Source: Desulfococcus sp. 4484_241 (lineage in GTDB: Bacteria > Desulfobacterota > Desulfobacteria > Desulfobacterales > Desulfosudaceae). From it: a stretch of 32,630 bases of DNA. The notes under the pieces were generated by a model. That model made no database searches, had not been told where the DNA came from, and saw nothing but the letters and a program-made list of their open reading frames with translations. The stretch is taken from the NCBI GenBank assembly GCA_002085115.1, contig MZGQ01000017.1:1-32630 (forward strand), in the 5' to 3' direction. The position numbers and the translations under genes were made by a program. Below are positions 31,537 to 32,630 of the stretch, piece by piece. The number at the start of each line of letters is the position of its first letter. Position 1 is the first letter of the stretch.

Positions 31537-31725
31537 ATGAAACTGCTTAGAGTAATCGTTCTTCTTGTTGTTGTTTCAATGCTTAGCGGCTGCGTTTTGA
31601 CAAAGGTCGTTTCCGTGCCTATGAGGGTGTGCGGAGCCGTTGTCTCGATCGTTCCTGTTGTGGGCAACACCGGGCACGACGCAATCGACAAGGCTGCAGA
31701 CATTGTAGATGACGTCCCGATATGA
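31537..31725 (+). CDS. Small lipoprotein with a conserved VGNTGHDAIDKAADIVDDVPI tail
   Basis: ATG 31537 after GGAAAGGA: MKLLRVIVLLVVVSMLSGCVLTKVVSVPMRVCGAVVSIVPVVGNTGHDAIDKAADIVDDVPI; lipobox LSGC. Confidence 0.85.
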   Translation: MKLLRVIVLLVVVSMLSGCVLTKVVSVPMRVCGAVVSIVPVVGNTGHDAIDKAADIVDDVPI

Positions 31726-31902
31726 GCTAAAGCCTTATCTGCAAGCATTATAATCAAGAAGCAAAAGCAAGGTATATCCAAAGGCATGGGCCTTTGTGGT
31801 TTTGCTTTGCGTTTGCATCCTGCTTTTGCGCCCAGGTTCTGGGGAATATCCACGCACGTACCGATTTTACCTCCCGGGCATACAGTATTTATGGCATAAC
31901 TG

Positions 31903-32630
31903 ATGAAAAATCATAAGACCAAAGGCTATTGGGGCAGAAGAGGGGTATTCCTGCTGATTGAAAATCTCAACTGAGCATTGGCCTTCCTGGAAGTTTTCCA
32001 GGATATGTATGGCATTCCCAATGACACGGTTCTTAAGGCTGTAACCGGCTTTGAAGGCGGAGTCGTGGCTTGTGGTGCTACCTGCGGGATCGTTACAGGC
32101 GGGGCCATTGGCATCGCCCTGAACCATGCGGATTTTCTCAAGCAGGAAGGAGAGCGTGCAAATAAAGCCATATTGGAAAAAACCGGTGCCTATGTGGAGT
32201 GGTTTGAAAAACGGTTTGGCTCATGCCGGTGCAGGGCGCAAACCGGTATAGATTTTTATTCTGCCTACGGGCAGCTGCGCTACTTCTTCCCTGGTGAAAA
32301 GGTTGCAGGCTGCATGCTCAAAATTCGTAGAGCAGCGAGGTATCTTTACGATATCCGCCAGTTTTGCCCAAAATCCGTTGCAGGAGCGGAAAATAGCCTT
32401 AATCTTCCCAATCATTCCGTTCATTGCGCAGTAAATGTGCTTGAAAAAATACGGCAGAAAACCGGTATCGGTGATGATCTGCTTGAAACGGTTGCCGTTT
32501 CCCTCGATGGGGGTGTAGGGCTTTCCGGTAATGTATGCGGAGCCTTGGCCGGAGCTGTGATGGGAATCAATCTCCTTCTTGGCCTCGATATCCGCAACAT
32601 ATCATTTGCAACAACGGTAAAGGCTTTTGT
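31903..32630 (+). CDS. Tandem C_GCAxxG_C_C-family redox protein, predicted selenoprotein (UGA at 31972-31974 = Sec); 3' end off window
   Basis: MKNHKTKGYWGRRGVFLLIENLN[UGA]ALAFLEVFQDMYGIPNDTVLKAVTGFEGGVVACGATCGIVTGGAIGIAL...GSCRCRAQTGIDFYSAYGQL...GCMLKIRRAARYLYDIRQ...then second repeat HSVHCAVNVLEKIRQKTGIGDDLLETVAVSLDGGVGLSGNVCGALAGAVMGINLLLGLD... Missed by the ORF track because of the in-frame UGA and open end. The start codon has no obvious SD. Confidence 0.75.
31985..32003 (+). promoter_or_regulatory. Candidate bacterial SECIS element
   Basis: TCCTGGAA-GTT-TTCCAGGA: perfect 8-bp stem, apical loop GUU starting with G, loop G 18 nt after the UGA. Confidence 0.7.

Follow-up and report, generated by a model that had tools for sequence, protein, structure and literature searches.

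The gene at the 3' end of the window, as we call the whole 32,630-bp stretch of DNA analysed here, very probably encodes a selenoprotein of the C-GCAxxG-C-C family, a tandem protein of anaerobic bacteria, in which the UGA codon at positions 31972-31974 (+ strand, residue 24) would be read as selenocysteine (Sec24). This reading, put forward in a preliminary description of the sequence, is strongly supported by the occurrence of TGA or Cys codons at the corresponding column in homologues, by the conservation of the region upstream of the UGA, by a putative hairpin downstream of it and by the presence of most of the selenocysteine machinery in the host genome.

A tandem C-GCAxxG-C-C gene with an in-frame UGA

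The 5' part of the gene spans positions 31903-32630 (+ strand). Its ATG start codon (31903) lies shortly after a stop codon (TAA, 31897-31899), and read-through translation showed that the TGA at 31972-31974 is the sole interruption of the frame up to position 32630. Since the window corresponds to an entire contig (C9) and ends inside the gene, the gene is 3'-incomplete; 242 codons and 2 bases are present and the remainder is missing past position 32630. The expectation that standard gene callers would miss or shorten the gene was borne out by the plain ORF list, which yields just an N-truncated form of 217 aa (31978-32628), with a TTG start and open at the contig end. Immediately upstream of the gene, a small ORF (31537-31725, + strand) encodes a lipoprotein-like signal (LLVVVSMLSGC).

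The read-through protein matched PF09719 with an E-value of 1.8e-28 (99.4 bits; cut-off 27), in two stretches corresponding to two modules, and TIGR01909, a model named 'C-GCAxxG-C-C family (seleno)protein', with 59.2 bits (cut-off 47.4). All 45 members of alignment A3 also matched PF09719. Module 1 contains four Cys-type positions: Sec24, Cys61 (32083-32085, within CGATCG), Cys110 (32230-32232) and Cys137 (32311-32313), the three Cys residues occupying invariant columns. In module 2, the counterpart of Sec24 is an invariant Cys (Cys175, 32425-32427), followed by Cys212 (32536-32538, invariant column) and by two later Cys residues that fall past the contig end and correspond to C281 and C305 in the full-length homologue L042; all these codons lie on the + strand. 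The repeat spacing noted in the preliminary description is exact, 37 residues separating both U24 from C61 and C175 from C212. Full-length homologues are about 320-345 residues long and consist of a pair of modules; in the Sec form, Sec is confined to module 1.

Sixty homologues drawn from Desulfobacterota, Actinomycetota and other groups, mostly from metagenome assemblies, were aligned. The codon found at the UGA column was TGA in 45 sequences (counting that of the window), TGT in 7, TGC in 7 and GCA (Ala) in 1; the presence of TGA or a Cys codon in 59 of the 60 sequences is beyond chance. The proposal that UGA takes the place of a Cys codon, initially drawn from the internal repeat, is thus upheld by independent orthologues with TGC or TGT at the exact position (14/60). 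The peptide encoded just 5' of the UGA (YWGRRGVFLLIENLN, 31927-31971, + strand) is conserved among homologues, which keep the pattern WG.R.....LLKDLN, indicating that translation must begin upstream of the UGA. Homologues starting downstream of this codon, which would have spoken against a selenoprotein, were therefore not what the alignment revealed.

A match with an E-value of 1e-10 or better was found in 15 of 194 genomes of the order, and the two-module proteins aligned from this search (n = 12, including the one described here) all had a TGA at the column. Scanning one genome per species returned 68 loci. Close orthologues with Cys, sharing approximately 40-50% identity, were found in Desulfobacterales (L047 and L048), in Smithella (L051 and L069) and at locus L063; Cys forms also exist in several Actinomycetota. 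When the Sec or Cys state was mapped onto a tree built without the UGA column, 8 changes were needed, at least 6 of which are forced by the starred branches; the tree was obtained by a quick method and its deep joins are uncertain. Loss of SelB was rejected as the cause of the Cys forms, SelB being encoded by 11 of the 13 genomes with Cys copies and by 11 of the 13 genomes with Sec copies.

A putative SECIS hairpin and the selenocysteine machinery

A putative hairpin downstream of the UGA, UCCUGGAA-GUU-UUCCAGGA (31985-32003, + strand), satisfies the constraints on bacterial SECIS elements (bSECIS) printed in PMC13188914: it starts 10 nt past the UGA and has 8 bp and a 3-nt loop (GUU) with G first, 18 nt separating the UGA from this apical-loop G. 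These constraints were passed by 38 of 45 Sec copies, 4 of 14 Cys copies and 11.5% of the 1,103 TGAs in the window. The folding energy of the hairpin, about -14.4 to -14.6 kcal/mol, is unremarkable on its own, with a single-sequence z of -1.18 that is not discriminating.

The conservation of the stem was examined within one clade, because the hairpin seems to be placed elsewhere in distant clades. The six-pair core was paired in 161 of 168 cells (96%) in Sec homologues versus 18 of 30 (60%) in Cys homologues of the same clade, a difference for which the Fisher p-value (4e-7) is optimistic since the rows are related. Changes on both sides of the stem were found, C-G being replaced by U-A in L027 and L050 (CCTGGA/TCCAGG to TCTGGA/TCCAGA) and GGA/UCC by GCG/CGC in L066 and L067 compared with the rest (CCTGGA/TCCAGG to CCTGCG/CGCAGG). 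Because the stem overlaps codons for conserved residues (LEVxQD), some of this conservation may reflect constraints on the protein. RNAalifold predicted no common structure for 12 divergent sequences. Most Sec copies from Actinomycetota have another hairpin, GGUACCCU-GGU-AGGGUACC, with a spacing of 23 nt. This hairpin is degraded in most Cys relatives and intact in L084 (Candidatus Solincola), a Cys copy in which the SECIS-like structure is still whole 23 nt past the Cys codon; its persistence suggests that the change from Sec to Cys in L084 was recent.

Most of the genes expected for selenocysteine incorporation were detected in the host genome (G000), a draft assembly of 128 contigs that is 87% complete. 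The selA gene (604 bits) lies at C71:31676-33040. Two different tRNA-Sec genes (selC) with a UCA anticodon are located at C71:26142 and C61:8613 (loci L021:1143-1239, + strand, and L022:4610-4707, - strand). The selD gene (C117:590-1516; locus L024:488-1543, - strand) contains one in-frame TGA after VRASG, and SelD of the host is itself predicted to be a selenoprotein. The anticipated set of sel genes is thus present with the exception of selB, for which neither TIGR00475 nor the C-terminal wing domain PF09107 gave a match in the host assembly. Given the incompleteness and fragmentation of the assembly, and since SelB was found by its wing domain in 11 of 12 relatives bearing a homologue, the simplest reading would be that selB falls in an assembly gap. 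In the proposed mechanism, SelB in complex with Sec-tRNA-Sec would recognise the hairpin inside the coding sequence, leading to the insertion of Sec at UGA 31972-31974.

A second, lower-scoring tRNA-Sec was also found in 4 of 10 relatives. In three relatives, the second tRNA-Sec adjoins a second, divergent SelB-like gene (L114:3238-5267, L115:2839-5332 and L116:3335-5378), and in two of these cases genes resembling HdrA/MvhD-type electron-transfer proteins were identified nearby by eye. The second tRNA-Sec and the divergent SelB-like gene possibly form a separate selenocysteine cassette.

Other explanations for the in-frame TGA were weighed against these data. It is very unlikely that the UGA is a true stop and that the real gene begins downstream, at TTG 31978 or at a later ATG, the upstream similarity being leftover sequence. 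The mechanical 217-aa ORF does start at 31978, but homologues preserve the peptide 5' of the UGA in the same frame, 14 homologues read through this position with a Cys codon, and a downstream start would leave the protein without the initial Cys/Sec position of its motif. A TGA resulting from mutation of TGC or TGT in a pseudogene, or from a sequencing or assembly error, could be envisaged for a gene cut by a contig end in a draft assembly; we consider it extremely improbable, since the same codon is found in 45 aligned homologues (again counting the window) across many assemblies and genera, including a single-contig genome (G070, locus L027), and since the remaining frame is whole and conserved. 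A genome-wide reassignment of UGA, for example to Trp or Gly, in place of local recoding is scarcely conceivable: homologues carry Cys rather than either of these residues at the position, tRNA-Sec(UCA), selA and selD are found in the genome, and many relatives terminate the same gene with TGA.

Family relationships and predicted structure

The protein belongs with the C-GCAxxG-C-C family (PF09719/TIGR01909), as both curated cut-offs were exceeded and the four-Cys pattern is present. It differs in that the full-length form studied here is a two-module tandem of approximately 330 aa with Sec only in module 1. Members of this family containing Sec have already been catalogued (PMC9312934), and PMC13188914 lists a form 1 and a form 2 (sequences MGD8741185.1 and WP_012158890.1); novelty is therefore limited to one more member, which may belong to a tandem subfamily not yet described. 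The HUGP/GUXX-star fusion selenoprotein profile (NF045501) fits module 1 (residues 15-129), indicating a domain in common. However, the score (51.9 bits, and 46.1 bits for the full-length L042) is below the cut-off of 325, and the second half of the protein is another C-GCAxxG-C-C module. Unlike NF045501, no second in-frame UGA was noted near the C-terminus of full-length homologues. The DVU_1555 family C-GCAxxG-C-C protein model (NF045669) describes the same domain, but is a single-module model of 140 positions, and the scores (55.1 bits, and 63.8 for L042) are below its cut-off of 103. Split-Soret cytochrome c (NF047622, PDB 1h21) shares the short motif GG..G..CGA..GA, whereas the overall match to NF047622 scores only 16.2 bits (cut-off 400) and that to the PDB sequence has an E-value of 0.56. 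A search of PHROGs returned no match, and Rfam detected three ordinary tRNAs and nothing else in the window.

The AlphaFold2 model of full-length L042, generated with 45 sequences, was all-helical (pLDDT 93.5, pTM 0.92), and the protein is probably all-helical and cytoplasmic. Foldseek returned no PDB match below an E-value of 1 with this model, the best hit of a BFVD fold search was merely at E 0.038 (TM 0.15), and a profile search for solved relatives recovered split-Soret cytochrome c alone. Hence no solved structure for the tandem form was found in the PDB by Foldseek and profile searches. We tentatively propose, as a possibility rather than an expectation, that the tandem form represents a selenoprotein subfamily in its own right, as yet undescribed and occurring in Desulfobacterota and Actinomycetota. 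It would have a fold without solved relatives, Sec in module 1 only, several Sec/Cys exchanges, a SECIS distance that varies between lineages and a Sec24 that may sit in a metal or Fe-S site.

Possible function and significance

The family is annotated as putatively redox-active. From this annotation and the conservation of the Cys residues, Sec24 most likely has a redox role in module 1: it would act as the reactive selenol and would form a selenol/thiol redox centre together with Cys61/Cys110/Cys137, module 2 being an all-Cys version of module 1. The interchange of Sec and Cys is typical of redox selenoproteins, which argues against a role restricted to metal or Fe-S binding. That Sec is inserted and Sec24 nevertheless chiefly binds a metal or an Fe-S cluster, or plays a structural part, is a variant that we regard as possible though rather unlikely. 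It would be consistent with the four conserved Cys-type positions per module, with the weak likeness to split-Soret cytochrome c (16.2 bits with NF047622, 23.3 bits for L090) and with the annotation of a C-GCAxxG-C-C family member as putative FeS cluster-binding (PMC8322314).

The gene neighbourhood of the Desulfobacterota copies revealed no neighbour family widely common to them. At two loci, L058 (6067-11757) and L059 (190-5893), the homologue heads a same-strand run of four genes with sizes matching between loci. In the L058 run, Pfam identified gene 1 as epimerase-like, gene 2 as a short-chain dehydrogenase and gene 3 as a thiamine-diphosphate enzyme; gene 4, grouped by sequence similarity and named by eye, is alcohol-dehydrogenase-like. 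The proteins found only in acetone-grown Desulfococcus biacutus include a C-GCAxxG-C-C protein, a thiamine-diphosphate enzyme, a short-chain dehydrogenase, a Zn-dependent dehydrogenase and an acetyl-CoA acetyltransferase (PMC4103992). The resemblance of the L058/L059 run to this acetone-induced set may be taken as a functional hint, coming from one lineage.

Because standard callers would truncate or miss the gene, its key residue is lost from annotations. The close Cys orthologues, encoded by genomes that mostly retain SelB (11/13), offer a clean natural test of what Sec adds. The presence of a Sec module beside a Cys module in one protein would likewise provide a natural comparison of the contribution of Sec.
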